Source of the DNA: Rubritalea squalenifaciens DSM 18772
Lineage (GTDB): Bacteria; Verrucomicrobiota; Verrucomicrobiia; Verrucomicrobiales; Akkermansiaceae
NCBI RefSeq assembly: GCF_900141815.1
Contig: NZ_FQYR01000002.1
Location: 349,091 to 413,090, forward strand
DNA length: 64,000 bases
Direction: 5' to 3'
In this document: positions 20,218 to 62,472 of the stretch, piece after piece
Numbering within the stretch: position 1 is the stretch's first letter
Layout of the letters: the number at the start of each line of letters is the position of its first letter
Notes under the pieces: generated by a model
Told to the model about the DNA's origin: nothing
Databases searched by the model: none
Seen by the model: only the letters and a program-made list of their open reading frames with translations
Position numbers and translations under genes: made by a program

Positions 20218-21024
20218 AGACACAAGCAAAACGATAGACACCCAAGCTAGTGAACCAGCCGCCCGGGTCAATCTCTGAGTTGGAGCCCGCCTTGCGGGTA
20301 GTGGGAAGGATAGAGGAGAAAGGAAAAAGGCCGATAAGATGAAACCAATACGCGACCCGCGTTGGGATAGGCCCCTACGGGGAATTACTGATTACAGATT
20401 ACTGATCCTGGCTAGATGGAACCGGGCTTGATGAAAACGTATCTAGCCACAGATTAAGCAGATTGGGACTGATTGCTGGGCTGGATGGAACGGCTGTCGA
20501 TGGGTAGATTTTTTCTACCACGAATCTCACGAATAGGTTCTGGATGAAACCCTGCTAGATGGAACATCCGCGACCCGCGTTGGGGTCGTCTTCTTTTTTT
20601 ATCCAATTCCCGGGGTAGCGACCCTGCGGCTCGCAACCGCCGGGCTAAGGTACGGAACCCCGTTGGGGTTCGCCCCTGCGGGGCATTACTGATTACAAAT
20701 TACAGATTACTGATCCCGGCTAGATGGAACCCCAATGACTCATGACTCTTGACCAATGACAAGCGCCCAGAGGGCGCTTCATCCCGGAGGGATGTTGGAA
20801 CGAAGAGCGGTGGTAAGCTTGCCGGGGCAAGCGCAACCCCGGGAACCGGCCCTCCCAATAAAAACCACCCCGGAGGGGTGGAGGAACAGGTTCCATCAAG
20901 CAGGGCTCCAACGTGCCTGGGCTCGATTCTTGATTCTTGATACTAAATTCTCCCCGCAGGGGCCGGCCCATTAACGAATAACGATTCACCAATAACAAAA
21001 GTACGATTCACCAATAACAAACGT
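20218..21024. repeat. Repeat mosaic
   Basis: Contents in order: GGATAGA heptads 20305-20330, partial G and TACTGAT heptads 20345-20405, CACAGATTA word 20450-20475, CACGAAT word 20518-20535, module G 20570-20682, TACTGAT heptads 20685-20715, TGAC heptads 20733-20760, hairpin 20761-20780, module H 20785-20890, ATTCTTG heptads 20925-20952 and ATTAACG heptads 20970-21020. No gene. Confidence 0.75.
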
Positions 21025-25490: not shown

Positions 25491-25919
25491 GGGGTGGGTA
25501 CGTGATGTAAAACGACGGGGTTGTGCGACCTTGGGATGCTAGGGGCTTGGTGGATTAAGCCAAGGAGGTTTTTCAGCATTTTGGATTGAGAAAACCGGCG
25601 ATCCTCAAGCTATCGGCAACCTTTGTATGATCAGAGGTAGATGCCAAGTCGTCTCTGAAAACCGGCGATCTTTCCGGCGATGTTTTGAAGCGGCTACGAG
25701 ACGCTTGTTATTGGTCAAGGGTCAGGAGCCTTTGGACCTGCTTGATGAAACCAATACGGAACCCGCGTTGGGGTAGGCCCCTGTGGGGCATTACTGATTG
25801 GTGATTACTGATGACTGATGGATGTTCCCGGGGTAGCGACCCTTTGGCTCGCAACCGCCGGGCTAAGGTACGGAACCCCGTTGGGGTTCGCCCCTGCGGG
25901 GTGGGGGGAGGTGGTCTCC
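25491..25919. repeat. Direct repeat, unique DNA and module G
   Basis: 25491-25700 is mostly unique; GAAAACCGGCGATC occurs twice, at 25590-25603 and 25657-25670, 67 nt apart. TGAC word 25711-25728, partial G and TACTGAT heptads 25760-25820, and module G 25827-25892 follow. No gene. Confidence 0.55.
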
Positions 25920-26606
25920 TTAGACGGTCGGGCAGAGGCTTTGGACGATGGAGGTGAGGGCGGGGCTGAGTAGCTGTGCGCGGAGATCGATGGGGGCGAG
26001 TTGGCCGTCTTCCATGGCGATGATGTTTCCCTGGTGGGTGTCTGAGACTACGATTTCCCTGCTGGGGTCGTAGTAGGCTATGTTGCCGTCGACCTTGAAG
26101 GGGAGCCAACCGGAGCTCTGGAAGAACTCGTGGATTTGTTCCTGGCTGGCTACTGCGCCCTCGATGGCGGGTTGGGTAATGAGGAGGCGCATGCCGCGAG
26201 GGGTGTCCAGCACTCCGAGAAATTCCACGGAGTCCCCGAAGAGTTCGTTGTGAAGGTGCCAGCGTTCCAGGTAGTCAATGGGTGAGCACTGGGGCTCCTC
26301 GTCCTGACGGTGGACGACTTTCATGCCAAAGTGGTTTGGCCAAGTGGCCTTGAGAAAGCTTGCCTGCTCTTCGCAGTACCAGACCTGGTGTTCATTACCC
26401 TCCGCAGTGGGCTGGGTGTCTAGGGTGTCTGGTGCTTGGGTGAGGAAGTGCTGGTGCCTGCCTGCGTAGGCTCGAAAGATCCCGACTTCCTCGGTGTAAT
26501 AGGTTGTGCCGCCATAAAGGCGCGCACTTGCTTCACAGCTTTCACTGAGCTGCGCAACAAGTGGCGGGAGCGGGACTCCCTCAGTTTTTTGGCGTCGATC
26601 ACGCAT
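25920..26606 (-). CDS. Kinase-like protein of the PolyVal type
   Basis: 228 residues, no signal peptide. The C-terminal half has the layout of a small protein-kinase-like domain: a strand motif with VSDTHQGNIIAMEDGQLAPI at about 187-206, carrying catalytic-loop D189 and N194 and, after it, the metal-binding Asp in PIDLRA (about 207). A lysine in SFLKATWP (about 86) could be the ATP-binding lysine. This matches the kinase fold found in phage polyvalent proteins (Kinase-PolyVal), described from phages and mobile elements. Here it is stand-alone, next to a phage-derived module. A toxin or signalling role is possible; substrate unknown. Confidence 0.65.
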   Translation of the reverse strand: MRDRRQKTEGVPLPPLVAQLSESCEASARLYGGTTYYTEEVGIFRAYAGRHQHFLTQAPDTLDTQPTAEGNEHQVWYCEEQASFLKATWPNHFGMKVVHRQDEEPQCSPIDYLERWHLHNELFGDSVEFLGVLDTPRGMRLLITQPAIEGAVASQEQIHEFFQSSGWLPFKVDGNIAYYDPSREIVVSDTHQGNIIAMEDGQLAPIDLRAQLLSPALTSIVQSLCPTV

Positions 26607-26833
26607 TTAAGCTACAATCTGTTGTGGATTTGAAAAGTAGATTTTTCGAGCCCAAGTGGCAAGCCGGGCTTCGCTCCATCAAGCCACGATTCGTCAAATT
26701 CGTGCAATTCGTGGTGGAAAAAAGTTTCATCAAGCAGGCCTTTATCCTTTCTCCTATATCCTTCTGACTCCCCGCAGGGGCTTCATCTAGCCGGCCCATT
26801 AACCAATAACCATTAACGATTAACAAATCATCA
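26607..26833. repeat. Short repeat stretch
   Basis: Reversed CACGAAT array 26691-26720, GGATAGA heptads 26745-26775 and ATTAACC heptads 26796-26830. No gene. Confidence 0.6.
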
Positions 26834-27742
26834 TCAACAAATGTCCACGAAGAGGGCCTGGATGATGGAGTCGTCGAGGGGTTGGTACTCGGGGTACTTG
26901 GGGTTGGTGCTGTGGAGGTACCATTGGCCGGACTTGCTGATCAGGCGCTTGAGCACCATGCCGCCGCCCTCGCAGACGGCGTAGATCTTGCCCTCGGTTT
27001 CCTCGCCGGGGTGGACGCGTTTCATGACGATGAGGGAGGAGTCCGGGATTCCGGGTTCCATGCTGTCTCCGCAGACCTGCACGGCGAAGTGGTCGTCCGG
27101 GTAGCTGCGGTCCACGCGGATGAACTGCTTGGGTTCGTCCTCCCAGCGGAAGGGTTCGGTATAGAGGGCGGAGCCGGCGGAGAGGGAGCCGATGCAGGGC
27201 AGCAGGTGATGGCCGCTGGCGGGGGGGCTGGCCGTGGTGGTGGCGGAGGCGCGGCGGGTTTCCTGGCGCTTGGCCTCGCTGAGCTTTTCCAGGATGCTGG
27301 CGATGTAGACCACGCCGATGCGGCCCACCTTGCCGGGTTTGCCCGGGTCCTCGTGGGCGGCGCGCACCATTTCCTGGCCGAAGGCGATGAGGTCCTCGGT
27401 GGGGATGTAGGGCAGGGTGTAGGAGGAATGGTGGTCCTCCGTGTAGCGGGCCAGGTGGTCCAGCGCCATGGCCAGGTGCTCGTTCTCCTCCATGGCCTTG
27501 CCCAGCTGCAGGGCGAGCGGGGATACTGGTTCCCCGGAAGAGGTAACTTTTGTCAGGGTGATGCCCAGATACTCGCAGATTTTATCCACATTTTCCTCGC
27601 TCAGGGTCTTCAGGGTGCCGTTGAAAAGGCGCGTGGCCCAGTTCTTCTGGAAGCCCAGGTGGGCCGCTAGATCGGACTGGTTGATCCCCTTGTTCCTTAT
27701 GCCAGAAAGGATGGAGGCGCGTACTGAGTTCGTGATTTTCAT
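26834..27742 (-). CDS. Phage-type repressor: HTH plus S24/LexA-like autoprotease
   Basis: 302 residues. An N-terminal helix-turn-helix of the XRE/CI type is at about 8-62 (NQSDLAAHLGFQKNWATRLF). A long Ala/Pro/Ser linker follows. The C-terminal S24 (LexA/CI) domain has the SAG cleavage-site region near 188-190, the catalytic serine in GDSMEPG (S227) and the catalytic lysine in MVLKRL (K265). Such repressors cleave themselves when RecA filaments form on damaged DNA, releasing a prophage or SOS-type promoter. It is divergent from 27832-28029, and two GTTAC-N7-GTAAC sites lie in the shared intergenic region. It is the regulator of the phage-derived module. Confidence 0.9.
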   Translation of the reverse strand: MKITNSVRASILSGIRNKGINQSDLAAHLGFQKNWATRLFNGTLKTLSEENVDKICEYLGITLTKVTSSGEPVSPLALQLGKAMEENEHLAMALDHLARYTEDHHSSYTLPYIPTEDLIAFGQEMVRAAHEDPGKPGKVGRIGVVYIASILEKLSEAKRQETRRASATTTASPPASGHHLLPCIGSLSAGSALYTEPFRWEDEPKQFIRVDRSYPDDHFAVQVCGDSMEPGIPDSSLIVMKRVHPGEETEGKIYAVCEGGGMVLKRLISKSGQWYLHSTNPKYPEYQPLDDSIIQALFVDIC

Positions 27743-27765
27743 GCCGGGGGGAGTGTAGCCTAAAG

Positions 27766-27788
27766 AAAGTTACCTGAGAAGTAACTTT
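27766..27788. promoter_or_regulatory. Putative repressor operator O1
   Basis: An 8-bp perfect inverted repeat AAAGTTAC-N7-GTAACTTT (spacer CTGAGAA) in the divergent promoter between the repressor and the small early genes. Confidence 0.65.
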
Positions 27789-27802
27789 TTACTTGTCGCC
27801 GG

Positions 27803-27819
27803 GTTACATGTTAGGTAAC
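27803..27819. promoter_or_regulatory. Putative repressor operator O2
   Basis: GTTAC-N7-GTAAC (spacer ATGTTAG), the same half-sites and spacing as O1, 34 bp centre to centre. It lies just before the start of the rightward gene and may overlap its promoter. Confidence 0.65.
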
Positions 27820-27831
27820 TATATACCTGTG

Positions 27832-28029
27832 ATGAGTGGAAAGTCAGTACTGGAAGTTCCGGAGGAACAGAAAATACGGATACGGAGTTTGGCGGATGGT
27901 GCAAACACGACAATCAAGGATGCCACCAAGGTGATCCTGGGGTGGGCGCTGGATCAGTTCGAGGGTGAGCAGGTGCGCCTGCAGGGTGTGTGTGTGGCTG
28001 AGCCAGTGGTGAAGGGAGGTTTGTCGTGA
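27832..28029 (+). CDS. Small regulatory protein, Cro-position
   Basis: 65 residues from the ATG at 27832 (a longer frame starts at 27793 within the operator region). The region VPEEQKIRIRSLADGANTTI looks like a short DNA-binding strand-helix pair, possibly a ribbon-helix-helix or small HTH, as expected for a Cro- or Arc-like protein. Its position, first rightward gene facing the CI-like repressor with two operators between them, supports a lytic-switch or early-regulator role. The stop overlaps the next start (TGA/GTG at 28026-28029). Confidence 0.6.
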   Translation: MSGKSVLEVPEEQKIRIRSLADGANTTIKDATKVILGWALDQFEGEQVRLQGVCVAEPVVKGGLS

Positions 28030-28286
28030 GTGGCTGCCGTGAACTGGAGCGCTTGCGCCAGGCGGTGGACACTGCGCCGGCGCCCCGCGGCTGGACCAAG
28101 TACCGGGCGGAGTTCTTCCGCCTGGTCAATGGGCTGGGCTATGGGGTGAAGGAGGCGGCGGATTTCGTCTCAGACGTGCTCGGGCACGGTGCGGACGAGA
28201 GACGCCGCTTCTACCTGGCGGCGCGCTGCTGGAGGAATCCGGAGCAGGAGAAAAGCAGAACAGTGGAAATGGAGAAGCAAGGATGA
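28026..28286 (+). CDS. Small phage-module protein
   Basis: 86 residues beginning with GTG at 28026, preceded by a strong Shine-Dalgarno AAGGGAGGT (28012-28020). The sequence is helical and basic, with a KYRAEFFRLVNGLGYGVKEA stretch and a C-terminal EKQG tail. No recognised family. It overlaps the previous and following genes by 4 nt each, so it is part of a tightly coupled early operon. Confidence 0.65.
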   Translation: MSGCRELERLRQAVDTAPAPRGWTKYRAEFFRLVNGLGYGVKEAADFVSDVLGHGADERRRFYLAARCWRNPEQEKSRTVEMEKQG

Positions 28287-28573
28287 GAGGCAGGACGATA
28301 CCGGATATTTACGATGCCATGGTGGCGATGGAGCAGGTGGGGCTGAGGCCGCAGTGCATGGCCATCCGCTGCCAGTGCGAGGGCTGTGGGGAGGAAATCC
28401 AGATCGATACCGGCGAGGCGCTCGCGGTGGATGCCTACATGGCGGACTGCTGCGGGGTCTACGGCTGGTGTGATGAGGAATACCTCTGTCCCGAGCATGC
28501 GCGCAGGCAGCGCGCGGCCCTGGCGGCGGATGAGGCCATGCTGGCCTGCAGTGGCAGGGAGGACGCGGCATGA
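28283..28573 (+). CDS. Small cysteine-rich zinc-binding protein
   Basis: 96 residues. The cysteines are arranged in pairs along the chain: CxCxGC near residues 30-35 (CQCEGC), CC near 56-57 and C near 69 with His at 72 (CPEHARR), a likely zinc-binding fold. Small zinc proteins are common in phage early regions. No named family assigned. It overlaps its neighbours by 4 nt (ATGA junctions) on both sides. Confidence 0.6.
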   Translation: MRGRTIPDIYDAMVAMEQVGLRPQCMAIRCQCEGCGEEIQIDTGEALAVDAYMADCCGVYGWCDEEYLCPEHARRQRAALAADEAMLACSGREDAA

Positions 28574-28755
28574 GGCGCAGTACGGAGGAGCGCGAGCGGC
28601 TGGGCCTGGCGCCGGCACCGCAGCGCAATGAGCACCGCGGGTCTGAGCTGCAGCTGGGCCCCAGGCCCGTGCGCTCAGGCAGGCTGCTGAGCTGGGTGGC
28701 CTACGGGGGCACGGCAGCGGCCATGGCGGGGGTCCTGCGCTACCTGCTGGGCTAG
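28570..28755 (+). CDS. Small basic protein with a C-terminal membrane segment
   Basis: 61 residues; the first half is strongly basic and glutamate-rich, and the second (LLSWVAYGGTAAAMAGVLRY) is hydrophobic, likely a single membrane helix. It overlaps the previous gene by 4 nt. No recognised family; possibly a small membrane-associated phage protein. Confidence 0.55.
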   Translation: MRRSTEERERLGLAPAPQRNEHRGSELQLGPRPVRSGRLLSWVAYGGTAAAMAGVLRYLLG

Positions 28756-28770
28756 CGCGGGCATAGCAAA

Positions 28771-28875
28771 GCCCCGGACCTTCTTCCCCGCTTAGAGAGA
28801 GAATCGTGTGTGTGTGACCAGTGTGTGTGTCGGCAGATCGGTTTCTCTAACAGGAAGGGCGGAGAGGTCCGGGGA
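28771..28875. other. Nested inverted repeat with GT-rich loop
   Basis: CCCCGGACCT (28772-28781) and its perfect inverse AGGTCCGGGG (28865-28874) enclose TTAGAGA (28792-28798) and its inverse TCTCTAA (28844-28850). The loop is alternating GT (TGTGTGTGTG and GTGTGTGTGT). It could be a structured RNA, a hairpin replication site or an attenuator. It lies between 28570-28755 and 29017-29292. Confidence 0.5.
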
Positions 28876-29016
28876 ATAACCCCCGAATAAAACCGAGAGG
28901 AGAGGGCTGGCCGTGTGTGTGCCGGCGTGTGGGCGCTGATGCGCGAGAGGAAGCATTTCCAGCTACCAGGAAACATTTTCAAACGATCTAACAGAATTAG
29001 TAAATAGAAAAAACCA

Positions 29017-29292
29017 ATGATGATCAACCAAGGATGGATGAGTGAGAGAGAGGAGCCGCTGGATGTGGCTGAGGCTTGTGTGGCGAGTGTGAACTATCGC
29101 GTACGGCGCGGGGGATCGGTGCAGCGCATGGAGTTCCGCGCGCGTTCCACTCCGCTGGCCCTGCACAAGGCACGCCAGGCCATGGAGCGCCGCCAGGTGC
29201 ATTCCTATGAGGTGGAGAATGTGAAGCGCCACGTGCGCCGCGCTTGCACCCAGCAGGACTCCGACGAGGAAGTGATGAAGGTGCTTATCTAA
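29017..29292 (+). CDS. Small phage-module protein
   Basis: 91 residues. It contains a basic patch (NYRVRRGGSVQRMEFRAR) and a helical C-terminus with KRHVRRACTQQDSD. No Shine-Dalgarno is obvious before 29017, and internal Met codons at 29020 and 29038 are possible starts. No recognised family; the basic nature suggests nucleic-acid binding. Confidence 0.55.
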   Translation: MMINQGWMSEREEPLDVAEACVASVNYRVRRGGSVQRMEFRARSTPLALHKARQAMERRQVHSYEVENVKRHVRRACTQQDSDEEVMKVLI

Positions 29293-29572
29293 CAGTATTA
29301 TTCAAAGGTAAGTAAGTGAGTCGGTAACTAGGTGAGTAAGTAAGTAAGAAAGTAAGAAAAATTTTTCATAACGCGGAAGCTTGGTCCGCAGGAGTCGCTA
29401 CCGCGGGGTGGTGGGGACCCCGGGTGGCGAGCAGCGATGCCGAGGTGGGTACTTGAGGGGAGTAGGGGCATCGCAGGTGGGGAGCGCATACCAGATCACG
29501 CTCATTTCTAACAAACTTATGTAGAAGAGAAAATGGCTTCCGCAGAACCAAAGCAAACATTCAAGCAGAGCA
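29293..29572. repeat. GTAA-type tetranucleotide array and unique GC-rich DNA
   Basis: 29307-29356 is a degenerate array of GTAA/GTGA words (AAGTAAGTGAG, GTGAGTAAGTAAGTAAG). 29380-29475 is GC-rich with a CCCCGGGTGG core. No gene. Confidence 0.6.
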
Positions 29573-30004
29573 ATGATGAAGTACGTGTGTGTCAGTACTG
29601 CCGAGGAGAGTCCCGTGTGTCCCAGTGACGCGCGGGGCTTGTCTCCCCACGGGCAGGTAAAGAATCAGGAGAAGGGGGTGAAGGCCCCAGTGGATGCGCG
29701 GGTGCAACGGGAGCTGCTGCTGGCGCTGTGTGTGGCCAGCCGCTTCACCGGCCTGCCGGATGCCCGCACCCTGCTGGAGGGCGCGCGGGAGAACCTGGAC
29801 TACCGCGTGCGCAAGGCCCTCTGGGTAAGCTGCTGGCTGCTAGACCGGCGTGGCTGCCCGCACGCCATCATCCGCCGCGCCCTCAAGCTGGACAGCGACC
29901 AGGCCGTAGCCACCTGCGCCGCCACCGCCGAAAAAATGTGCGAGTTCCGCGCGCTAGAGCGCGCGCTCGATTCCCTCGCGGAAGCGAGGGAGGAAAAAGG
30001 ATAG
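29573..30004 (+). CDS. Phage-module protein, possible DNA-binding
   Basis: 143 residues. The second half has helices with LPDARTLLEGARENLDYRV and a recognition-like segment CPHAIIRRALKLDSDQAV, similar in style to the helix-turn-helix of DnaA domain IV or of small phage regulators, but not diagnostic. The cysteine-rich C-terminus (CAATAEKMCEF) may be a helix. It is between the early operon and the DUF1376/DnaC pair. Confidence 0.55.
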   Translation: MMKYVCVSTAEESPVCPSDARGLSPHGQVKNQEKGVKAPVDARVQRELLLALCVASRFTGLPDARTLLEGARENLDYRVRKALWVSCWLLDRRGCPHAIIRRALKLDSDQAVATCAATAEKMCEFRALERALDSLAEAREEKG

Positions 30005-30672
30005 AGGAAAAAGGAGAAAGCCCTGCTTGATGGAACCCGGCACGATGAAGCGAAGCCCTGTGGGCTGTCATGGGTCAATGGTCAGGAGTCATTGGGCTTG
30101 AGTTTCCGCTTAGATCATTCGGTACCGTAGCCAGTAGCGAGTAGGAAGTAGCCACTCCGGATAAACCGGAGATCAGCCACACATGCAGACTGGATAGATA
30201 AAGCATGGATGAAATTTTCCTCGGGGAAATTTCCGCTACTTGCTACTCCCTACCTGCTACGGATCCTACCCACCATTGCCCCCTGACAAACCCGAAGGGG
30301 CGAACCCCAACGGGGTTCCGGATGTTAGCCCGGCGGTTGCGATCCGCAGGATCGCTACCCCGGGAACATCCATCAGTAATCACTAATCAGTCATGCCCCG
30401 CAGGGGCCTACCCCAACGCGGGTCGCGCAGGTTTCATCGTGCAAGGCTCATCAAGAAGCTCCCTATGACTCCTGACCAATGACAAGCGCCCAGCAGCGCT
30501 TCACCCCGGAGGGGTGGAAGAACAGGTTCCATCAAGCCGGCCCATTAACAAATAACCATTAACCAACAACGCACGCTCAGGTGGAGGAAGGTTACGCAAC
30601 TACCCAGCCTTTATCCTTTTTCCTTTATCCTGATCACTTCCCCAACCGGGGAATCTAACCATTAACAAAACA
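30005..30672. repeat. Repeat mosaic inside the phage-derived module
   Basis: Reversed TGAC word with hairpin 30055-30100, type I element 30125-30262, inverted module G 30300-30425 with TACTGAT heptads, TGAC heptads 30462-30482, partial module H 30505-30530, ATTAACC heptads 30543-30575, GGATAGA heptads 30608-30640. These host-type repeats interrupt the phage genes. No gene. Confidence 0.7.
30125..30262 (-). repeat. Type I inverted-repeat element, copy 6
   Basis: Inverted copy; nearly identical over more than 200 bp (including flanking sequence) to copy 7 at 51042-51179. Confidence 0.8.
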
Positions 30673-31563
30673 ATGCCTAAGAAGAAATCACCCGCATTCC
30701 AGTTTTACCCGAAGGACTACCTCTGCTCAGACAGCGTCATGCAAATGAGCATGCAGGCCCAGGGCGCGTACATGCGCATGCTCTGCAAGTGCTGGCTCAG
30801 CGGCACCCTCCCGGCGGATGCCAAGAAGATCGCCGTCCTGATCGGCTTCCCCACCATGACCCGCGCAGTGAGAGAGGCCATGCAGCTCTTCACCGTGGAC
30901 CCGGATGACCCGGAAAGACTGCGTCACGATCGCCTGGATGAGGAGCGCGAGAAGCAAAAGAAGAACTCGCGAGCGCGTGCCGTCGCCGCGAAACTGCGCT
31001 GGGTAGAAAATAATGACTCCGAGCAAGTCGAGACAAAGTCTGAAACACTTTCTGAGGAAAACCCCTCTACTACGGGGGATACAGAGGATCAGGGGGATGC
31101 AATTGCATCCGTTTTGCATCCGCAAATCGATGCAAACGCGGAGCAAATGGTATGCACTACTACTACATCTTCATCTCCAACTACGGTAGTAGTTGAGAGA
31201 GAGAAGAAAAAAAGGCGACGGCGTGCGCCGAAGGAATCCGATTGCGAGGTCTATGCACGCAGTCGTGCCCCGGACGAGTGGAAGGAATTTGCAGGCAGCG
31301 TAGGCAGGGAGTTCTACGGCGTCTACGCCGGGCAGGATTGGTACAAGCAGACAGGAGAGGATCTCCTCTCTAACAAAAAATGGAAATACGTGCTCCAGGT
31401 CAGGCTGGAGGCAGAACTCAGAAAGGAAAACGAACGTGGCAAACGCTATACGCAAAGAAAAAAACATGCAGCAGGTGATCGAAAAACTGGAGGCAGCGGC
31501 AGCACAGACAAGCAGCCGCAGAGGGACAAGGCAGGGGCAGGCATCAGCGTCCGCTCGCTATAG
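30673..31563 (+). CDS. DUF1376 phage replication-associated protein
   Basis: 296 residues. The N-terminus matches the DUF1376 pattern seen in phage and prophage replication genes: PAFQFYPKDYL, then MSMQAQGAYMRMLCKCW and SGTLPADAKKIAVLIG (about 7-70). The rest is a lysine/arginine-rich, low-complexity region with acidic stretches. The family is commonly placed next to a DnaC/DnaB-type helicase or loader, as here, and is thought to help initiate phage DNA replication. The next gene overlaps its 3' end by 128 nt in another frame. Confidence 0.85.
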   Translation: MPKKKSPAFQFYPKDYLCSDSVMQMSMQAQGAYMRMLCKCWLSGTLPADAKKIAVLIGFPTMTRAVREAMQLFTVDPDDPERLRHDRLDEEREKQKKNSRARAVAAKLRWVENNDSEQVETKSETLSEENPSTTGDTEDQGDAIASVLHPQIDANAEQMVCTTTTSSSPTTVVVEREKKKRRRRAPKESDCEVYARSRAPDEWKEFAGSVGREFYGVYAGQDWYKQTGEDLLSNKKWKYVLQVRLEAELRKENERGKRYTQRKKHAAGDRKTGGSGSTDKQPQRDKAGAGISVRSL

Positions 31564-32128
31564 GGGGCCGGAGAGCTGCCGGCATGAGCTGGTGGAGCAT
31601 CGCTTCCCGCTGCGCCACATCGCCGCGCTCGAGCAGCAGGGCGGAGCCTCGCATGAGAAGATGCTCTCCCTCAGTGACCGCGTGGCCGCCGGGGATGCCC
31701 TCCTCATCCTCTGTGGAGACCGCGGCGGCGGCAAGACCCAGATGGCCACCTGGTGGGCACACCAGCGCCAGCGCGCCGGACATCCCTGCGGCTGGTACTA
31801 CAAGGCTCATGACCTGTTAGAACTGATCCGCCAGCAGTACGAGGGCGGCCAGACCGCCGTGGAGGCCCGCAAGACCCTGGAGCGCACCCGCCGCACCGGC
31901 TACCTCGTCATCGATGAATTCAGCGAACTCGCTGGCTCCGAATGGGAGCGCCGCACCCTCACCAATCTCGTCGACCACCGCTATGACGCCCTCAAAACCA
32001 CCGTCATCATCACCAACCACCCCCCGCAGGACATCCCCGCCGCCCTAGGCCGCTCCATTTGGTCCCGCGCCGAAGAAACCGGCGGCATCGTCAACTGCGA
32101 CTGGGGCAGCTACCGTGCCCGCCCGTAA
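31436..32128 (+). CDS. DnaC/IstB-like AAA+ helicase loader
   Basis: 230 residues. The GTG at 31436 has a Shine-Dalgarno AAAGGA 8 nt upstream; an ATG ten codons later is an alternative. The P-loop is GDRGGGKT at about 94-101 and the Walker B is YLVIDEF (about 157-163), as in DnaC/IstB ATPases; a sensor-type VIITNH follows. It would load a replicative helicase at an origin in phage replication. The gene lies partly inside the DUF1376 gene in a different frame. The stop codon is in the loop of a perfect hairpin (32118-32135). Confidence 0.87.
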   Translation: MANAIRKEKNMQQVIEKLEAAAAQTSSRRGTRQGQASASARYRGPESCRHELVEHRFPLRHIAALEQQGGASHEKMLSLSDRVAAGDALLILCGDRGGGKTQMATWWAHQRQRAGHPCGWYYKAHDLLELIRQQYEGGQTAVEARKTLERTRRTGYLVIDEFSELAGSEWERRTLTNLVDHRYDALKTTVIITNHPPQDIPAALGRSIWSRAEETGGIVNCDWGSYRARP

Positions 32129-33030: not shown

Positions 33031-34059
33031 CTAGCTGAGGTTGGCTTCCTGAGTTTCCAGGAACTGGCGTATGTGTTCTCCTTGGGCTTTTCCGAGTGGT
33101 GGTGGAAGAGCTTCACCTATCATAGAAGAGATCTTGCCGATACCGAGTGTCGTAGGAAGAATATAGGTCTTAGGAAACCCCTGCAATAGCATGGCCTCGT
33201 ACAAGGTAATCCCACGATTTTCTGAGGGGTGTACGAATCGCCCTTTAGAAGGGTTATGGCTGGCTCTTGTGATGGTGGGCGCTACATCATCCCAACTCAT
33301 ACGTCCGTACACATCACGAAAGCCTTTAGGGTATCTTTTATGGCATGGAAGTTCGTATTCTTCTGGAAGTTCGCTGCGGTTCTTTTTGACCAGTGAAATC
33401 CTTTCTACTACTCGAGCACTTAAATTCTGACGAAGTCGATGAAGAGGTAGCTTGTGTTTCCCATCAGGTGATGGAAGGCCTTTGATTAGGTCCTTCACAA
33501 ATACCTTGTTGTTGCCTTTCTCAGGTAGGCCCGCCTCACCGAAGCGTGTTGCAATAAGAATCATTCTCTTACGGCGCTGAGCTACTCCGTAATCCTGAGC
33601 GTCTAGCACGCCATCAGAGAACTTATACCCATACTTTTTTGAACCCAAGATACGCTTGAATTCTTCCAAACGCTCATCACGTAGAAGTCTAGGTACATTC
33701 TCAATAAGAATGACTTTGGGTAATAGTTCCTTAGCCAAGCGAGCTACATCAAAGATGAGTTCATTACGTGGATCATCCGCAACTTCCTTGTTCTTGGTCC
33801 TCATGGACGAGAATCCCTGGCATGGTGGACATGCGGCCAAGAGGTCAAGCTCCCCTACTTTCAGATTAAAATCTTTCTGTATTTGTGATCCCTCTAATTC
33901 TCTGATGTCTGGATAAATTTTCGTATCAGGGTGATTCTGAGAATAAGTATCTCGAGCCTCAGGACGGATTTCGGCACAGGCCAACATAGTGAAGCCTGCT
34001 TGTCTTAGACCTTCACTGAGACCTCCACATCCAGAAAATAAATCAATCGCCTTCCTCAT
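33031..34059 (-). CDS. DNA cytosine-5 methyltransferase (Dcm family)
   Basis: 342 residues carrying the C5-methyltransferase motifs in order: motif I DLFSGCGGLS (7-16), motif IV PPCQGFSS with the catalytic cysteine (about 78-85), motif VI ENVPRL (about 119-124), motif VIII QRRKRMILIA, a short target-recognition region, motif IX with LYEAMLLQGFP and motif X GEALPPPLGKA. It transfers a methyl group from S-adenosylmethionine to cytosine in a specific site, which cannot be read from sequence. It is the last gene of a three-gene minus-strand operon, 10 nt after the receiver gene. No restriction nuclease is adjacent. The gene and operon are clearly more AT-rich than the surrounding genes, consistent with transfer. 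Confidence 0.93.
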   Translation of the reverse strand: MRKAIDLFSGCGGLSEGLRQAGFTMLACAEIRPEARDTYSQNHPDTKIYPDIRELEGSQIQKDFNLKVGELDLLAACPPCQGFSSMRTKNKEVADDPRNELIFDVARLAKELLPKVILIENVPRLLRDERLEEFKRILGSKKYGYKFSDGVLDAQDYGVAQRRKRMILIATRFGEAGLPEKGNNKVFVKDLIKGLPSPDGKHKLPLHRLRQNLSARVVERISLVKKNRSELPEEYELPCHKRYPKGFRDVYGRMSWDDVAPTITRASHNPSKGRFVHPSENRGITLYEAMLLQGFPKTYILPTTLGIGKISSMIGEALPPPLGKAQGEHIRQFLETQEANLS

Positions 34060-34069
34060 ATCTGTTTAA

Positions 34070-35617
34070 CTATCCTCTTTCGGTACGCCCGTGTCTCAGG
34101 AACATGGGCTGGTTGACACCAACTCTAGTTGCGTGTGACCAATACCTACCAGAGATTCGTGAGATGATAAACTCTCTTATTCTTCCTATTATTATATGAT
34201 CGGCAATCTGCTTAGTTCCTTCTGCATATGATAATCTGTGCAAGTTCTTTGCTCCAGTTTTAATCACATATTCATTTCCTTTGAACCGCAAGAAGGTGTA
34301 GCCATCCTTGTCGTCATAAGTGCCATGAGAACTGACTAGTTCTGCCTCTAAAAATAAAAGATGATCAGACCATGCGCAGTCGCAATTTTCAGATATACAA
34401 ATGAAGATAGAAGGGTGAGGAGTTCTTCTGCCTTCAAAGGCTTGTTGCGCGGCGTTAGTGGTCATGATTGATCCGTGACTATACTTTTGATTAGGGCTAG
34501 GGTTACTTCTGATTTCAGCAAATTCAGAAAACATCAAATTAGCATTCCATAAGTCGTTGATTTTTTGATGTCCGTTTACCAAGTTAAAATTGGTCCTAAT
34601 AGCATTAAGCATTCTCTTGTAGTCACTGATCCCTCTGACTTTGCCGCCTGACGGATTGAGCTTATTAGCATACTTAGCTAAATCTGAGTGTGGATTAGAT
34701 AGATCTTCTGCTCCTTCCGGAGGTGTATAGTCTAGTGCATCAGTTCTCAATTGTGAGATCTCCGAGTTGAAGCCAGTCCTGAATTCGATATCCCAAGCGT
34801 CTAATTTGAGCAAGTCATCAGAGAGGCAATGAAGGGCATCCGGGTCAATTGTTTCTTTTAAATCCTCCAATAAGTTTTCACAAATTGCGTGCCTAACATC
34901 TTCTTGTGAATGGTGCTTTTCTGTGAGTACACCTAAGTCGGTGCCACAAGGTAACGCAGATAATAAAGAGGGGATATTTCGCTTGATTGCAGAGGAAAGC
35001 TCTATGGCCGCCCAGTGTAGGTAGTCTGGATAAACCACGGACAACTGGTTGAAAATTTCTTCGAGGAGCAGACGCCCTTTTTGAACTCGCTCATCATTAT
35101 CTTCTCCATCAAAATCTTGCTTGTGCTTTAGGACTACATTTAATTGACCATTGGTGAACCAATCACCATTTCGCTCGAACTCAGGAAATTCACTTTTAAA
35201 TTCTGAAGTGAGATTCTCTTTTCTAGACAGAATAACTAAAAAGCGGGCACCTCGAAGAGATGCTATTTCTTTAATGATTCTAACTGCTAGTTCAGGGCGG
35301 TCTTCGTAGCCCAAATGCCAATCAAGTATAATTATGTCAGCTTGAGTTGCTAAGTTAGAACATTGCTGTATATCGTTATCTATATCCTCTTCTTCTGAAT
35401 AATCATCTTCTTCTAAGCTTCTAATAGACGGAAAACCTCTGAGGTGACAAATAATACCTTCGTCAGATATTGCTTTGGAGATAGGGTGATAGAATTCTCT
35501 GTACTGAAGTCTCAATGCAGGATCGTCTGACTCCGGGAGTATTTGGTCATCAATCCAGACAAGAGACTTACAAAACTCTTTGATAACTCGTTTTCTGATT
35601 ACGGTATTTGAGGGCAT
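34070..35617 (-). CDS. Receiver-domain protein of a phosphorelay
   Basis: 515 residues. The N-terminal part (about 15-180) is an atypical response-regulator receiver: acidic pair in LVWIDDQ (D23, D24), phospho-acceptor in IIILDWHLG (D99), and S131 with K133 in VILSRKE, a full set of phosphorylation residues. The receiver is interrupted by an acidic insert (EEDDYSEEEDID). The remaining 330 residues have no recognised output domain; near the C-terminus is CISENCDC with a cysteine cluster and a later NEYVIKTGAKNLHRLSYAEG. It is 5 nt downstream of the dual-GHKL kinase gene and 10 nt upstream of the methyltransferase. A phosphorylation-controlled effector or adaptor is inferred. Confidence 0.8.
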   Translation of the reverse strand: MPSNTVIRKRVIKEFCKSLVWIDDQILPESDDPALRLQYREFYHPISKAISDEGIICHLRGFPSIRSLEEDDYSEEEDIDNDIQQCSNLATQADIIILDWHLGYEDRPELAVRIIKEIASLRGARFLVILSRKENLTSEFKSEFPEFERNGDWFTNGQLNVVLKHKQDFDGEDNDERVQKGRLLLEEIFNQLSVVYPDYLHWAAIELSSAIKRNIPSLLSALPCGTDLGVLTEKHHSQEDVRHAICENLLEDLKETIDPDALHCLSDDLLKLDAWDIEFRTGFNSEISQLRTDALDYTPPEGAEDLSNPHSDLAKYANKLNPSGGKVRGISDYKRMLNAIRTNFNLVNGHQKINDLWNANLMFSEFAEIRSNPSPNQKYSHGSIMTTNAAQQAFEGRRTPHPSIFICISENCDCAWSDHLLFLEAELVSSHGTYDDKDGYTFLRFKGNEYVIKTGAKNLHRLSYAEGTKQIADHIIIGRIREFIISRISGRYWSHATRVGVNQPMFLRHGRTERG

Positions 35618-35622
35618 ATTAA

Positions 35623-38574
35623 CTAGTCGTTATTTAAAAATGGAGTAATGGTAAAATTCGCGCCATCAAGGGCTCCCAGTTCAGGTTCTTGAGAGCAGGC
35701 GAGAATGAAGTCGGCGCCACGCAGTGCCTCTTTGGCAATGAACAGTCCTAAACCTCTTCCGTAAGGACGCCTAGAGAATCCTGGGTCAAAAATACGCTCT
35801 CTATCATTCTTTGTTATACCTGGTCCGTCATCGGATACTACAATAGTATTGCCAACCACTGAAAAGCGTATTCTTCCTTTGCTGTTACCTTTATTGGTCC
35901 AGTAGAGCGCATTAGTAAATAGATTGAAAATAGAACCGAGAATGACAGGGGTCTTGACTTTATGCAATTGCAGTTCACAGAATGCTGCGGTGAATTCTAT
36001 TTTGCTGTGAATATCAGGTGTCAGCTTGGCATGGTGGAGGATAAAGTCTTTAATGCTTTTGCCAGATAGTGAAGATCTGTTAGGAGATCTTCTTCTGACA
36101 ATAGGGTCAAACATACGTATTCTGTGATCTATAATTTCAAATGCATCAGCTAAAACTGCGAGAGTTTCTGCCTCTCCATTATGAAGTTTTCTTTTAAGCG
36201 ATCTGATTGAGTTTCTGACCAAGCTGACTTGATTTTCATATTCGTGGGTTGCTGTCTCAAGAATCAGTCCAATCAGGGCAATCTCTGTCAGGTAGTCTAG
36301 GCGTTCTTGAAGTGATTCGATCTTCTTGGAAAGCTCGTTTAACAAAATACTCTTACTGGAGTTATCTGTAAGGTGCTCAAAGTCATTCACGAGTCGTCGT
36401 ACACGAGGGAGTACGACTTCATCGTATGTATCTGTCTGGAGCTGAATTGCCTTTTCAAAAATTTTTGAGCTCTCTCCTGATTTGTCCCGAGCAATCTTCT
36501 CCAAGGTTAAACCGTCCAGCGCCTCATCTCTAATCCTATTGATAAAAGCTATTTCTTTATCCGCAAAATCTTGGATGTCACCCTCAATCGTTTTTGCCTT
36601 GGCAATAGCAGGTTGGAGTTCCTTATGTAAGCTATTGTGTATATAGCTTGATTTGCTGTTTAGCCTTTCTGATAGATTTTTGATGTTATCTTCTTCAGAG
36701 CGGGCTCTTTCTAATAAAGGAGCGAGTTGGGCTACTTGATTGGTGATTTCTTTCTTTAACCTATTAAGGATTCTCTCTCTAGTGCCGATGTAGGTATCGA
36801 CATCATCGAGTATGTCTCCTTCTAGAATAGCGCCATCAGGTGGATCGCAAGGACTGTCACGAAGCTCATTTTCTAGTTCTCGTAACTTATCGATCGATTC
36901 CTCACAATCATCTATGTGTGTGCCTGCTACAGCATTTCTTTCAGCAGCAATGTGTTGTCTGCCTTTTCGTACCTGATCTTTTTCTCTTTGTTCAAATTCT
37001 TTAATCCAAGCTTTATAGATTTTGATGGATTTTAGATATTCTGCGGTTTCTTCAGCTAGTCTATTTTGAGCTGCTTCTCTGGCCTTCTTCTCTTTCCTTT
37101 CTTTTTTGTCCTTTCGATCAGACTTGCTGCCGAAATGTGAATCTGCTAGATCAGTAAATAAATCTTCCAACCACAGTCTTAGGCCTCTGCTGGCTCCATT
37201 TTTAACGAAGCCTTCACGTCCAGCTTTTTCCTTCAGGCCTGTTGCTGTCTTGTTAGGAATGAATACCCCGCCAAACATACGAACGGAGGAGAAATAATAA
37301 CGGCCCGCGTTTTTGGCCCTCCTAGTTTCGAAGCCAGCAAAGTCGGAATCTATCGCCCCATAGGGTTGAATTCTGACATTGTCCATGTAGATCGAAAAGC
37401 CGCCAGCATGCTTCAATCTTGTCTCCATTTCGTTTCGTACTATTTCGGGGAGAAATGAGTCGGATTTTTGACCCTGAATATAGCCTATCTCAACTAAAAA
37501 ATTGCCCGGCGAGTGATGGCTCTTTGGTAAGTTCTTTAACTGCTTTTGGTAAGGCGTTGTTTTTTTGTCATTGTAGTTCTTGAAGAACCCTTTGGCGAAT
37601 CCGTCTTTGGATACTTCAATTTTAATATGATGGTCGCAAAGTTTGAAGTCATCAGGCTCCCAATAGCGATATGATTTATCCAGTGGTTTATCATTTAATG
37701 AAGGGTGGATTTGGAAAGATCTATCTTTTGTCTCGTGGAATGGGTTCCAGAATGTGGAGAAGGCATGGTAGGACTTTAGCCAGTCTGCAGTGCGATCTTC
37801 CCAAGATTTGATTTCATTATTGTCTTTTTCAAACAGTTCTTCGACATGTTCAGAGGGATTGAAGACAATAAAACTAGTGCCTGTTTCCCAGGGTAAATCG
37901 ATCAACTGCCTTAAAGCTGTACAGTCAATATTGATGTCTTCTTGTAGCTCTTTTGAAAGATGTTTGTCTGGAGAAATATCCCATTCGGTATCTTTTAGGA
38001 TTCCCTGAATAGCTGCGTTTTTCTGAAGGGTGGTGAATAGGTACTCGAAGTCAGACAGTGACGGGGATCCTTGTAGTTTCAATATTGGGACGGGGATGTC
38101 TTCGAAAAGTAAGTGAGGATGCTGAAATAAATTCCAGTGAACCAAGCACAAGGTGCCAACTTTATCTACCCCTTTTCCCCAGACCGTCCAGAGCAAGGTC
38201 ATTCTTCCTAACAGGGCAATAGACAAGCGTCCAATTCCCTTCTCACCGTATTTTGGTTTATTGAGCCACTCTTTTTGTTCAGATGTGGCATGTTTTAGCC
38301 AATTATCAGAATCTTCTGAATCTGGTTGGAAGCGTGATTCCGTGGCGAGAACCAACCATTTATCTTTGACGTCACAGGGGCGCATACCAAGGCCGTTATC
38401 GCGGATTTGGAGGAGTTGGTTTTCTTCGTCAAAATTTACCCTGACATCAGTTGCTGCAGCATCTAGAGCGTTTTTGAACAACTCCCCCATAGCAGTTGGG
38501 GCGTCTGCAATTTGCTGTCTACCTAAAAGGTCAACAACACGTGCACGGCTACGAAAAGTGGCTGGTTCGGGCAT
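35623..38574 (-). CDS. Dual-GHKL protein: MutL/MORC-like ATPase fused to a histidine kinase
   Basis: 983 residues. The N-terminal GHKL ATPase has the N-box AMGELFKNALDAAA (E31, N35), the G1-like motif IRDNGLGM (59-64) and the lid motif YGEKGIGRLS (109-118), the arrangement of MutL/MORC/Hsp90-type ATPases. A second-domain region continues to about 480 (SIYMDNVRIQPYG, MFGGVFIPNKTATG). A long charged coiled coil spans about 490-760. The C-terminus is a histidine kinase: phospho-accepting His in ATHEYENQV (about 777), N-box NLFTNALYW (about 884-892), G1 VSDDGPGI and G2 YGRGLGLFIAKEAL. Such an architecture suggests an ATP-driven sensor (DNA or complex clamp) that phosphorylates the receiver encoded 5 nt downstream. 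First gene of the three-gene operon. No membrane segment, so cytosolic. Confidence 0.88.
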   Translation of the reverse strand: MPEPATFRSRARVVDLLGRQQIADAPTAMGELFKNALDAAATDVRVNFDEENQLLQIRDNGLGMRPCDVKDKWLVLATESRFQPDSEDSDNWLKHATSEQKEWLNKPKYGEKGIGRLSIALLGRMTLLWTVWGKGVDKVGTLCLVHWNLFQHPHLLFEDIPVPILKLQGSPSLSDFEYLFTTLQKNAAIQGILKDTEWDISPDKHLSKELQEDINIDCTALRQLIDLPWETGTSFIVFNPSEHVEELFEKDNNEIKSWEDRTADWLKSYHAFSTFWNPFHETKDRSFQIHPSLNDKPLDKSYRYWEPDDFKLCDHHIKIEVSKDGFAKGFFKNYNDKKTTPYQKQLKNLPKSHHSPGNFLVEIGYIQGQKSDSFLPEIVRNEMETRLKHAGGFSIYMDNVRIQPYGAIDSDFAGFETRRAKNAGRYYFSSVRMFGGVFIPNKTATGLKEKAGREGFVKNGASRGLRLWLEDLFTDLADSHFGSKSDRKDKKERKEKKAREAAQNRLAEETAEYLKSIKIYKAWIKEFEQREKDQVRKGRQHIAAERNAVAGTHIDDCEESIDKLRELENELRDSPCDPPDGAILEGDILDDVDTYIGTRERILNRLKKEITNQVAQLAPLLERARSEEDNIKNLSERLNSKSSYIHNSLHKELQPAIAKAKTIEGDIQDFADKEIAFINRIRDEALDGLTLEKIARDKSGESSKIFEKAIQLQTDTYDEVVLPRVRRLVNDFEHLTDNSSKSILLNELSKKIESLQERLDYLTEIALIGLILETATHEYENQVSLVRNSIRSLKRKLHNGEAETLAVLADAFEIIDHRIRMFDPIVRRRSPNRSSLSGKSIKDFILHHAKLTPDIHSKIEFTAAFCELQLHKVKTPVILGSIFNLFTNALYWTNKGNSKGRIRFSVVGNTIVVSDDGPGITKNDRERIFDPGFSRRPYGRGLGLFIAKEALRGADFILACSQEPELGALDGANFTITPFLNND

Positions 38575-39708: not shown

Positions 39709-40113
39709 ATGGAGAAGAAGTGTCGGATGCGATTGGTGCGGAGGTGCTTGCTGGGGCTGCTGGCGGCGTACTTTGGCTGGTGCCTGTGGCCGGTGACGGA
39801 TGCTGTGACCGTGTGGGACGAGGCGGGGCTGAGCAAGCTGCAGAAGGAAAAGCTGATAGAGTGCGGCTGGAACAAGGGTGCCTTTAACCGGAGTGTGAAG
39901 TGGGGCCTGTGGCGGAATAACTTTTTCAGGCCCTGGAGCAAGGGGGGCTTCATCATGTATGTGGAGGGTACGCCGGAGGAGGTGAGCGTGCGGGCCGGCT
40001 TCTATGGTGGTCCCTTGTATGCGGGAGGGATCTTTTTCTCTGCGAAGTGGGTGAACGGCAAGTGGGTATCGCCGAAAAGAAATCCCGGAAACGAGCTGTT
40101 CTGGTACAGCTGA
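39709..40113 (+). CDS. Exported small protein, duplicated copy A
   Basis: 134 residues, MEKKCRMRLVRRCLLGLLAA start with a signal-anchor segment (about 10-26). The mature domain has aromatic motifs KWGLWRNNFFRPWSKGGFIM and ends GNELFWYS. It is nearly identical to the protein at 46527-46931; the differences are few (for example N60 versus D60). The upstream 109 bp including the type II element match too, so this is a recent segmental duplication or gene conversion. No recognised family. Confidence 0.7.
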   Translation: MEKKCRMRLVRRCLLGLLAAYFGWCLWPVTDAVTVWDEAGLSKLQKEKLIECGWNKGAFNRSVKWGLWRNNFFRPWSKGGFIMYVEGTPEEVSVRAGFYGGPLYAGGIFFSAKWVNGKWVSPKRNPGNELFWYS

Positions 40114-46526: not shown

Positions 46527-46931
46527 ATGGAGAAGAAGTGTCGGATGCGATTGGTGCGGAGGTGCTTGCTGGGTCTGCTGGTGGCGTACTTTGGCTGGTG
46601 CCTGTGGCCGGTGACGGATGCCGTGACCGTGGTGGACGAGGCGGGGCTGAGCAAGCTGCAGAAGGAGAAGCTGATAGAGTGCGGCTGGAATAAGGGTGCC
46701 TTTGACCGGAGTGTGAAGTGGGGCTTGTGGCGGAATAACTTTTTCAGGCCCTGGAGCAAGGGGGGCTTCATCATGTATGTGGAGGGTACGCCGGAGGAGG
46801 TGAGCGTGCGGGCTGGCTTCTATGGTGGTCCCTTGTATGCGGGAGGGACTCTTTTCTCTGCGAAGTGGGTGAACGGCGAGTGGGTATCGCCGAAAAGAAA
46901 TCCCGGAAACGAGCTATTCTGGTACAGCTGA
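46527..46931 (+). CDS. Exported small protein, duplicated copy B
   Basis: 134 residues, nearly identical to 39709-40113 (see there): same signal anchor, same WGLWRNNFFRPWSKGGFI core and GNELFWYS end. Both copies appear intact. The similarity stops right after the stop codon. Confidence 0.7.
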   Translation: MEKKCRMRLVRRCLLGLLVAYFGWCLWPVTDAVTVVDEAGLSKLQKEKLIECGWNKGAFDRSVKWGLWRNNFFRPWSKGGFIMYVEGTPEEVSVRAGFYGGPLYAGGTLFSAKWVNGEWVSPKRNPGNELFWYS

Positions 46932-61425: not shown

Positions 61426-62472
61426 GCCCCCTGCGGGGAGAAGTGGCCCCTGCGGGGAGTAAGAAGGATAGAGGAAAAAGGATAGAGGAAAAAGGATAGA
61501 GGAAAAAGGATAGAGGAAAAAGGATAGAGGCCGATAAGATGGAACCCAGCACGATGGAGCTTTTTCCACCACGAATAGCACGAATCTCACGAATGATCCC
61601 CTGCGGGGAGAATTGAGAGTCAAGACTACAGAATCAAGCCTGGGACGATGGAATGAAGCCCTGAGGGCTGGTCATTGGCTGACTTACCAACAGGCAGTGA
61701 CACCCTTCCTCCACCCCTCCGGGGTGGTATTACAAAAGAGGCGGGTTCCCGGGGTACGCTGCGCTTTACCCCGGGCTCTGTTCCATCATCCCTACGGGAT
61801 GGAGCGCCCTATGGGCGCTTGTCATTGCCCCTACAGGGAGAATTAAGAATCGGGAATGCAGAATCAAGTCTGGGACAATGGAACGAAGCCCTGAGGGCAT
61901 TTGGTTGGTCATGAGTCATTGGGGTTTCATCTAGGCGGAATCAGTCATCCGTAATCACGAATCAGTAATTCCCCGCAGGGGCCTACCCCAACGGGGTTCC
62001 GTACCTTAGCCCGCGGGTTGCGAGCCGAAGGGTCGCTACCCCGGGAATAGGATTAAAAACAGAAGGCGACCCCAACGTGGGTCGCGTAAGTTTCATCGTA
62101 GAGGGTGCCATCAAGCAGGAAACATCCCGGAGGGATGATGGAGCAGAGCGCGGTGGTAAGCTTGCCTTGGCAAGTGCAACCCCGGGAATCCGTCCCTCCT
62201 AACAAAACCACCCTGGAGGGGTGGTGGAACAGGTTTCATCAAGCCGGGCTTGTTCCTCTAACCTCTATCCTTTTTACTCCCCGCAGGGGCCAACCCCAAC
62301 ACGGGTCGCGTAAGTTTCATCTAGCAGGAGATCGATTCTGTATTCTCGATTCTCAATTCTCCGCGTAGGGGCTCCATCAAGCAGACTCCCAAGGCCGGAG
62401 GGCACCACATCCCTAAGGGGTGGAGGTGGCTTTAAACATGGTGCTGTTTTAGCTTTGTTGACATACTCTCTT
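61426..62472. repeat. Long repeat mosaic
   Basis: 14-bp tandem GGATAGAGGAAAAA (61466-61531), CACGAAT nonads 61571-61597, ATTCTTG-type words 61610-61635, reversed module H 61690-61800, TACTGAT words 61935-61965, inverted module G 61990-62088, module H 62120-62230, GGATAGA heptads 62255-62275, ATTCTTG heptads 62332-62360. The final 60 bases are unique. No gene. Confidence 0.75.
61466..61531. repeat. 14-bp tandem repeat
   Basis: Four complete units of GGATAGAGGAAAAA and a partial fifth; it is two fused GGATAGA-type heptads expanded. Confidence 0.85.

Follow-up and report, generated by a model that had tools for sequence, protein, structure and literature searches.

A phage-derived repressor and replication module in Rubritalea squalenifaciens is probably the early region of a podovirus-like prophage that now spans about 135 kb

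The window analyzed here is a stretch of 64,000 nucleotides of the Rubritalea squalenifaciens DSM 18772 genome (4.32 Mb, 17 contigs), located at C2:349091-413090, where C2 denotes the contig that carries it. At window positions 26834-32128 (approximately C2:375.9-381.2 kb) lies a module encoding a CI/LexA-like repressor, four small early genes that run divergent from it with successive 4-nt overlaps, a DUF1376 primosomal protein and a DnaC-like helicase loader. These parts had been named in a preliminary description of the window, which also took the module to be phage-derived; both points are borne out by Pfam, PHROGs and the open reading frames (ORFs), including matches to phrog_4, phrog_50 and a primosomal PHROG. 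No Rfam match was obtained within the window. In what follows, L and G numbers are our labels for DNA stretches and genomes, f1 is a family, and g3 and g13 are genera.

The preliminary description also reported an absence of structural genes. This holds for the window, where 21 queries with late proteins of the present element or proteins of a related IMG/VR contig, L111, gave a single match, that of the kinase stretch of a 2580-aa protein to the PolyVal kinase gene beside the repressor (the queries cover this phage type, and the other ORFs of the window were not scanned against PHROGs). It does not hold beyond the window, where genes from TerS to tail lie on the same contig; phage-like reading frames were met 108 kb to the right of the module. 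A packaging block with TerS, TerL, portal and scaffold-like genes (C2:439901-446441) and a capsid-tail-internal virion block (C2:489076-510265) share one contig and one strand with the early block, and the three follow each other in canonical phage order (Table 1). Among the late genes, PHROGs names TerS, TerL, a head-tail adaptor, a major head protein and two tail proteins, and the tail block holds a lysozyme-like CHAP protein that falls just below the Pfam cut-off. The end of the loader gene and TerS are 58,682 bp apart, the end of the scaffold gene and the capsid gene 42,634 bp, and the whole element, taken from the kinase gene at 375010 through the gene for the 2580-aa protein, measures 135,256 bp. 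Terminase searches of this genome with Pfam families PF03237 and PF05876 were empty, yet the TerL of L111, used as query, found one match, co-oriented with the loader, a caution against inferring absence from two profiles.

Taken together, the module is probably the early block of one temperate podovirus-like prophage whose later blocks lie on the same contig and which has been stretched to about 135 kb. The observed basis is gene content, order, strand, gene lengths, the confinement of repeats and the existence of compact relatives. The early block is assigned to the stretched prophage because its order and strand fit, because the loader search and the TerL query each return one match in the genome, and because of the parallel cases in genomes G226 and G250. 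Repeat-studded DNA carrying host-type cargo would have split the prophage at gene boundaries and driven its blocks 58.7 and 42.6 kb apart.

Table 1. Features of the module and of the late blocks (window positions unless marked C2; "same" denotes the strand of the early block)
Feature	Position	Strand	Basis or remark
Kinase-PolyVal protein beside repressor	25920..26606	-	Pfam; presumed member of the element
CI/LexA-like repressor, 302 aa	26834..27742	-	HTH_26 (Cro/C1 helix-turn-helix) and Peptidase_S24 (Pfam); phrog_4 transcriptional repressor, E 6.7e-26
Operator-like dyad 1, GTTAC-N7-GTAAC	27769..27785		pattern count in whole genome
Operator-like dyad 2, GTTAC-N7-GTAAC	27803..27819		34 bp from dyad 1; pattern count in whole genome
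Small early gene 1, 65 aa	27832..28029 (TTG start at 27793 possible)	+	ribbon-helix-helix-like by position and pattern, weak
Small early gene 2, 86 aa	28026..28286	+	4-nt overlap; no family (Pfam, PHROGs)
Small early gene 3, 96 aa	28283..28573	+	4-nt overlap; no family (Pfam, PHROGs)
Small early gene 4, 61 aa	28570..28755	+	4-nt overlap; no family (Pfam, PHROGs)
Small gene 5, 91 aa	29017..29292	+	no family; single PHROG match, E 0.035, not used
Candidate replication origin	29306..29375		GTAA-type direct repeats beside A/T run; speculative
Small gene 6, 143 aa	29573..30004	+	no family; all-helical prediction, pLDDT 41, not reliable
Island repeat block, 629 bp	29997..30625		between small gene 6 (covers its last 8 bases) and DUF1376 gene
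DUF1376 primosomal (replication initiation) protein, 296 aa	30673..31563	+	Pfam; PHROG "primosomal protein"
DnaC-like helicase loader, 230 aa	31436..32128 (ATG start at 31466 possible)	+	Pfam; phrog_50, E 6.1e-23
TerS	C2:439901-440305	same	PHROGs
TerL	C2:440630-442237	same	L111 TerL match 60%; PHROGs
Portal	C2:443001-444662	same	L111 portal match 50%; PHROGs names a head-tail adaptor among late genes
Scaffold-like gene	C2:445506-446441	same	label by position; L111 match 39%; PHROGs unknown function and weak protease
Capsid	C2:489076-490017	same	L111 match 68%; PHROGs major head protein

Compact counterparts of the late genes were found on three IMG/VR contigs, L109-L111, with capsids 68% identical to the present one (a fourth contig, L112, matched over 17 residues only). 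On L110 and L111, whose genes were labeled by eye, primosome, loader, small protein, TerS, TerL, 116-aa protein, portal, 91-aa protein, 177-aa protein, scaffold and capsid follow each other within about 10 kb, and seven of the 13 L111 proteins (cut-off E 1e-4) match C2 in the order of L111 and on one strand, with large gaps between them; apart from the genes of Table 1, these are the 116-aa protein (47% identity), the 91-aa protein (26%) and the gene after the capsid (53%). Their capsid, TerL and portal are the closest late genes found, and L109-L111 differ from the present element in having no large gaps over their 7-13 kb and in their early genes. The preliminary description offered a decayed prophage as one option. 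However, no sign of decay was seen, and the main particle genes agree in length with those of the compact relative, with 535 and 534 aa (R. squalenifaciens first) for TerL, 553 and 554 for the portal, 311 and 311 for the scaffold and 313 and 311 for the capsid. Outside the family, loci with homologous portals are compact as well: TerL and portal are separated by 0.4-2.1 kb in eight, and portal and capsid by 3.0-4.2 kb in five, while in a ninth (L194, an Akkermansia metagenome-assembled genome) the portal lies upstream of TerL. This control is small, since homologous portals were detected in 9 of the 80 TerL loci taken (the best 80 of 310). Named relatives with a homologous portal or tail have records of 33.6-43.8 kb, bar one of 9.9 kb (among 15 listed of 176 records and 15 listed of 162).

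Stretched counterparts occur within the family. In G250 (f1, g13), loader, TerL-like ORF, portal, scaffold, capsid and tail genes keep their order on a single strand, interrupted by gaps of 46 and 30 kb, and in G226 the same genes are co-linear on the minus strand of a 5.8-Mb contig, with 22 kb between the gene after TerL and the portal and only 1.4 kb between scaffold and capsid; the G226 gaps contain genes of the opposite strand. In the portal tree, the R. squalenifaciens gene groups with IMG/VR contigs (L109 and L111 in the clade; support 99/100), and the portals of G226, G202, G250 and G029 form a separate, less certain group (92/87). Because the present portal and those of G226 and G250 fall in different groups, stretching seems to have taken place more than once.

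Repeats inside the module at 30005-30672, already pointed out in the preliminary description, make up 92% of that interval, and the repeat fraction is 0.00 (rounded) in 26834-30004 and in 30673-32128. Across the 31 ORFs of the three blocks, which were assigned by place and not all by homology, 28 of 30,717 bases are repeat. Repeats between phage genes occupy 92% of the gap between small gene 6 and the DUF1376 gene and 71% of the 324 bp between TerS and TerL. Used as a query, the module gave 170 matches in its own genome including itself, and all others among the matches listed lie at C2:274-489 kb or on contig C9. In self-comparisons of fetched stretches, repeats reached 32% per 10 kb in this zone compared with 0.000 in seven 20-kb control stretches; they reached 31% in the provirus region of G226 (0-5.2% in seven G226 controls), and amounted to 4-14% over 0-100 kb of the G250 contig (at most 0.1% in three controls). 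Such a repeat-rich region in a 17-contig assembly could raise the suspicion that repeats joined pieces that are not neighbors, so that the layout would be an artefact, which is very unlikely given that the stretched layout is also found in G226 on its 5.8-Mb contig and that repeat matches to the module do not exceed about 450 bp in length.

Several observations weigh against the assignment of the module to one stretched prophage. No tyrosine integrase (PF00589) was found on C2, the five matches in the genome all lying on C3 or C4, one of them below the cut-off (serine recombinases were not searched). Att-like direct repeats, proposed in the preliminary description as a check, were looked for around the locus, and the flanks examined share only island repeats and chance matches of 15-16 bp. 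The repeat zone and the prophage are not co-extensive, because the zone begins about 100 kb to the left of the leftmost phage gene found and ends before the capsid block; in G226, repeats likewise continue outside the provirus, at 0.12-0.17 in some flanking bins. The G250 TerL was matched in its C-terminal part only and the G250 tail gene is split into two ORFs, and the proviruses of the family vary, with 4.4 kb between portal and capsid in G029, rearrangements in G202 and G017, and two cases, G044 and G180, that could not be resolved. Finally, the loader of the window differs in type from that near TerL in L111, and the primosome, loader, small protein, TerS, 177-aa and 370-aa proteins of L111 are unmatched here at E 1e-4, so that the early block may come from another phage. 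In addition, the late and L111 protein queries gave no match between 381 and 440 kb. This gap in matches and the loader type, which differs from those of both L110 and L111, would suit two unrelated remnants, an orphan early region and a separate co-oriented prophage to its right. However, this arrangement is quite unlikely in view of the shared order and strand, the single matches for loader and TerL, and the co-linearity of the same loader and late gene types in G226 and G250.

The presence of repressor and replication genes without structural genes in the window had also suggested a phage satellite or a plasmid-like replicon domesticated in the chromosome, and the loader does resemble proteins in 14 of 72,556 plasmid records, every one at less than 60% identity. 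However, with phage particle genes in line with the module, neither origin seems to fit, and none of the ten module and neighbor proteins scanned with Pfam and PHROGs belongs to an AlpA or primase family (partition and mobilization genes were not searched for). We consider this reading extremely unlikely, and the orphan module, satellite and plasmid were set aside after TerL, portal, capsid and tail had been found in order. According to the preliminary description, structural genes and an integrase at the locus would have made it an ordinary prophage; structural genes are present on the contig and a tyrosine integrase was not found, which takes that alternative half of the way. The element is not an ordinary prophage in that it is stretched to about 135 kb. 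In addition, tRNA-Thr (C2:265159-265233) has no 14-mer that recurs elsewhere in 250-570 kb, and no tRNA target was identified.

The genes of the early block suggest how the prophage may be controlled. In an alignment of the repressor to the lambda repressor 3bdn, Ala189-Gly190, Ser227 and Lys265 fall at the positions that we take to be the cleavage site, nucleophile and base of lambda CI. The pattern GTTAC-N7-GTAAC occurs at two places in the 4.3-Mb genome, both in the gap between the repressor and the early genes, compared with 21 for the backwards control pattern, and its occurrence in this gap exceeds chance; a repressor regulon elsewhere in the genome was rejected, since the exact operator pattern is confined to the locus. 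The repressor may hold the early operon through the two dyads, and DNA damage would then lead to RecA-triggered cleavage of the repressor and release of the operon. The product of small early gene 1, which is predicted to form two helices (mean pLDDT 64), might tune this switch as a ribbon-helix-helix-like protein; a 21%-identical protein in L055, at the equivalent place beside a related repressor, matches RHH_5 and Omega_Repress weakly, below the cut-off. Beside the repressor, the Kinase-PolyVal protein is 30% identical over 139 aa to part of the 2580-aa protein of the prophage. A Fic-like gene (about 410 aa, by eye) lies near the loader in both G250 (L096:1393-2619) and G226 (L097:12800-14038), whereas in the present element the PolyVal kinase adjoins the repressor.

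For replication, the DUF1376 and DnaC-like proteins may load the host helicase at a local origin near 29.3-29.4 kb. Small gene 6 was suspected from its place to encode a DnaA domain IV, which neither Pfam (no match), hhalign (probability 0.3%) nor the AlphaFold model (pLDDT 41) supported. A loader scan of genome contigs matched 25 stretches, none of which was confirmed, and no match was confirmed in DUF1376 and repressor scans of viral contigs. Because no tyrosine integrase was found on C2 and no att repeats in the flanks examined, replication would stay in place. The element of about 135 kb is presumably too long for its phage head and now a fixed chromosomal element, because the listed records of named relatives measure 34-44 kb. 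Induction would lead to replication in place and, at the most, to particles filled with parts of the region.

As to known systems, the element has the repressor, replication, terminase, portal, capsid and tail genes of a temperate prophage (Caudoviricetes) in order, split by the two gaps, while no att sites were found in the flanks examined and no tyrosine integrase on C2; its span compares with 33.6-43.8 kb in the listed records of relatives (bar the one of 9.9 kb), a comparison with relatives only. Pelagibacter phages (HTVC, Skadi and others), which we take to be podoviruses, have a homologous portal (27-28%) and tail tubular protein B (32-37%); an acetyltransferase gene is included in the match to tail B, and the 129-aa gene that follows tail B here looks GNAT-like by eye, with no Pfam hit. 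However, their records measure 33.6-36.4 kb (one 9.9 kb), compared with about 135 kb in three blocks. PICI-type satellites (phage-inducible chromosomal islands) are characterized by an integrase, AlpA and a primase and depend on the particle genes of a helper; here, no tyrosine integrase was found on C2, AlpA and primase families were matched by none of the module proteins scanned, and particle genes lie in line with the module. Helper-embedded satellites (HE-PICI) are reported to be integrase-borne satellites inserted within a late gene of a prophage (PMC10111431), and thus resemble the present case in placing foreign DNA inside a prophage late region; in contrast, the inserts here are tens of kb long, lie between genes and have no tyrosine integrase on their contig.

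The element could alternatively behave like a gene transfer agent, in which the cargo-rich zone would be replicated in place (run-off replication) under SOS control and with the help of the loader, and pieces of it would be packed by the packaging and particle genes. In the published definition, such agents are described as caudoviricete-derived particles whose endogenized genome often occupies several loci, is not fully packageable and is mostly inherited vertically, and which deliver random host DNA (PMC9662315). Caudoviricete-derived particle proteins are indeed present, the main particle genes being of full length and split over several loci (three blocks on one contig); the length of about 135 kb exceeds the 34-44 kb of the listed named relatives (one record 9.9 kb), and the replication module sits inside the cargo zone. 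A precedent exists in Bartonella, where a gene transfer agent is reported to combine phage-type particle genes with a phage-derived run-off replication origin in a cargo-rich plastic zone, and where DNA amplification and packaging have been measured (PMC2697382); the likeness to the present element exists on paper only. However, mostly vertical inheritance is not seen in its genus: of 260 family genomes, 71 have relatives of its tail protein (62 belong to g3), whereas the 11 other species of its own genus have none, and the closest counterparts of its late genes are on IMG/VR contigs instead of in proviruses of the family, for which reasons the present copy looks acquired. We accordingly hold a transfer agent here to be unlikely, and a silent, expanded and probably immobile prophage remains the first choice. 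Judged by title and the start of the abstract, no description of a stretched prophage of this kind was found in the PubMed Central literature, which leaves many subscription papers and preprints uncovered.

In genus g3, the same portal and tail type is scattered. Three g3 stretches were read: in L143 and L147 the tail gene stands alone among host genes, and in L142 (G152) a tail-A-like gene adjoins it. Both host neighbors are common to 13 of the 20 tail loci fetched, and BLAST queries found no portal or capsid in these 20 stretches, portals lying elsewhere in many g3 genomes. A six-row portal profile matched 59 of 72 g3 genomes, with no stops in any match listed; some matches represent a second, lower-scoring type. 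By subtraction, where the best portal shares its contig with a tail, portal and tail are 294 kb (G101), 258 kb (G046), 203 kb (G037), about 200 kb (G107) and 371 kb (G100) apart, and in G152 about 700 kb separates the portal from the nearer of two tails; G046 has a second, more compact set with loader, portal and tail at 2466, 2461 and 2452 kb. Ratios of nonsynonymous to synonymous substitution (dN/dS) were 0.02-0.10 within a set of eight portals and 0.26-0.31 when a ninth was compared with them, whereas a tenth gave no pair in range; for twelve of the 19 tails they were 0.08-0.22. The g3 loci bear gene-transfer-agent-like marks because portal and tail are scattered, dN/dS is low and the host neighbors of the tail are kept, and the scattered loci (L143, L147 and L180-L189 among them) are a possible gene transfer agent. 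By inference, g3 corresponds to Akkermansia, of which L194 is the only named record.

In the inserts, mechanical ORF calling with a minimum of 100 aa gave 57 ORFs in one (minus strand, 41) and 51 in the other (plus strand, 47); the identification of the cargo and several gene labels was partly by eye. Their cargo includes a trio of C5-methyltransferase, receiver-domain and HATPase genes, AraC- and GntR-type regulators, secreted small proteins, and an Rhs protein with an array of small genes. The trio (window 33031-38574; one minus-strand run of lower GC content, 0.41-0.46) comprises the C5-methyltransferase, a Response_reg_2 protein and a 983-aa HATPase/HEF_HK protein, and looks defense-like; PADLOC returned methyltransferase models for the first, none for the second and a weak LeoA match for the third. 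In the scaffold-capsid gap (L016:285-6020 and L016-L017; C2:450-487 kb), a 1911-aa Rhs-repeat protein precedes dozens of small genes, most of them co-oriented and one encoding SUKH-1, an arrangement reminiscent of a polymorphic toxin and its immunity array; six of the ten proteins scanned in this search had no family. Behind the tail block, two related 563-aa ORFs flank a 118-aa ORF that is 69% identical to the end of the 2580-aa protein (L106:299-4150; C2:510299-514150), apparently a duplicated tail-end cassette. The zone holds two confirmed genes for Y1 (IS200-type) transposases, one of which has a near-identical second copy, seen by eye (L012:12252-12710 and L012:17229-17687, the near-identical pair, the second by eye, and the longer L016:8521-9603); they are possible movers of the palindromic repeats. 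Many intergenic repeats of the window (e.g., 20384-20406, 25790-25819, 26796-26824 and 61464-61530), within the zone C2:274-489 kb, have periods of 7 bp (ATTACTG, CCATTAA, GTAGCGA/GCTACTA, CCTTTAT) or 9 bp (CACGAATCA) and comprise several unlike families and palindromic blocks; by eye, heptamer repeats within reading frames of G226 and G250 resemble them. A near-identical pair of 134-aa ORFs (39709-40113 and 46527-46931) lies 7 kb apart, each among island repeats, and Cas1-like and Cas9-like ORFs were seen by eye at the left edge of the zone (C2:284719-290989; L010-L011). With regard to an integron-like reading of the zone, no tyrosine recombinase was found on the contig.

Collectively, a prophage expanded threefold could escape searches that rely on densely clustered phage genes, or be taken for unconnected scraps, as happened in the preliminary description. 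A broader scenario, which we regard as rather unlikely, is that cargo carried by repeats has opened podovirus-like prophages of the family time and again, and that these can turn into scattered sets of particle genes under selection, gene transfer agents of Verrucomicrobiota; the present element would then be an intermediate stage that has retained an SOS switch and a replication module of its own and could multiply the cargo zone in place and pack pieces of it. With three stretched elements in two genera and the scattered g3 genes under purifying selection, the step from prophage to a gene-transfer-agent-like state is open to study, and such elements indicate places to look for particle-mediated, phage-like DNA transfer in Akkermansia-type bacteria.

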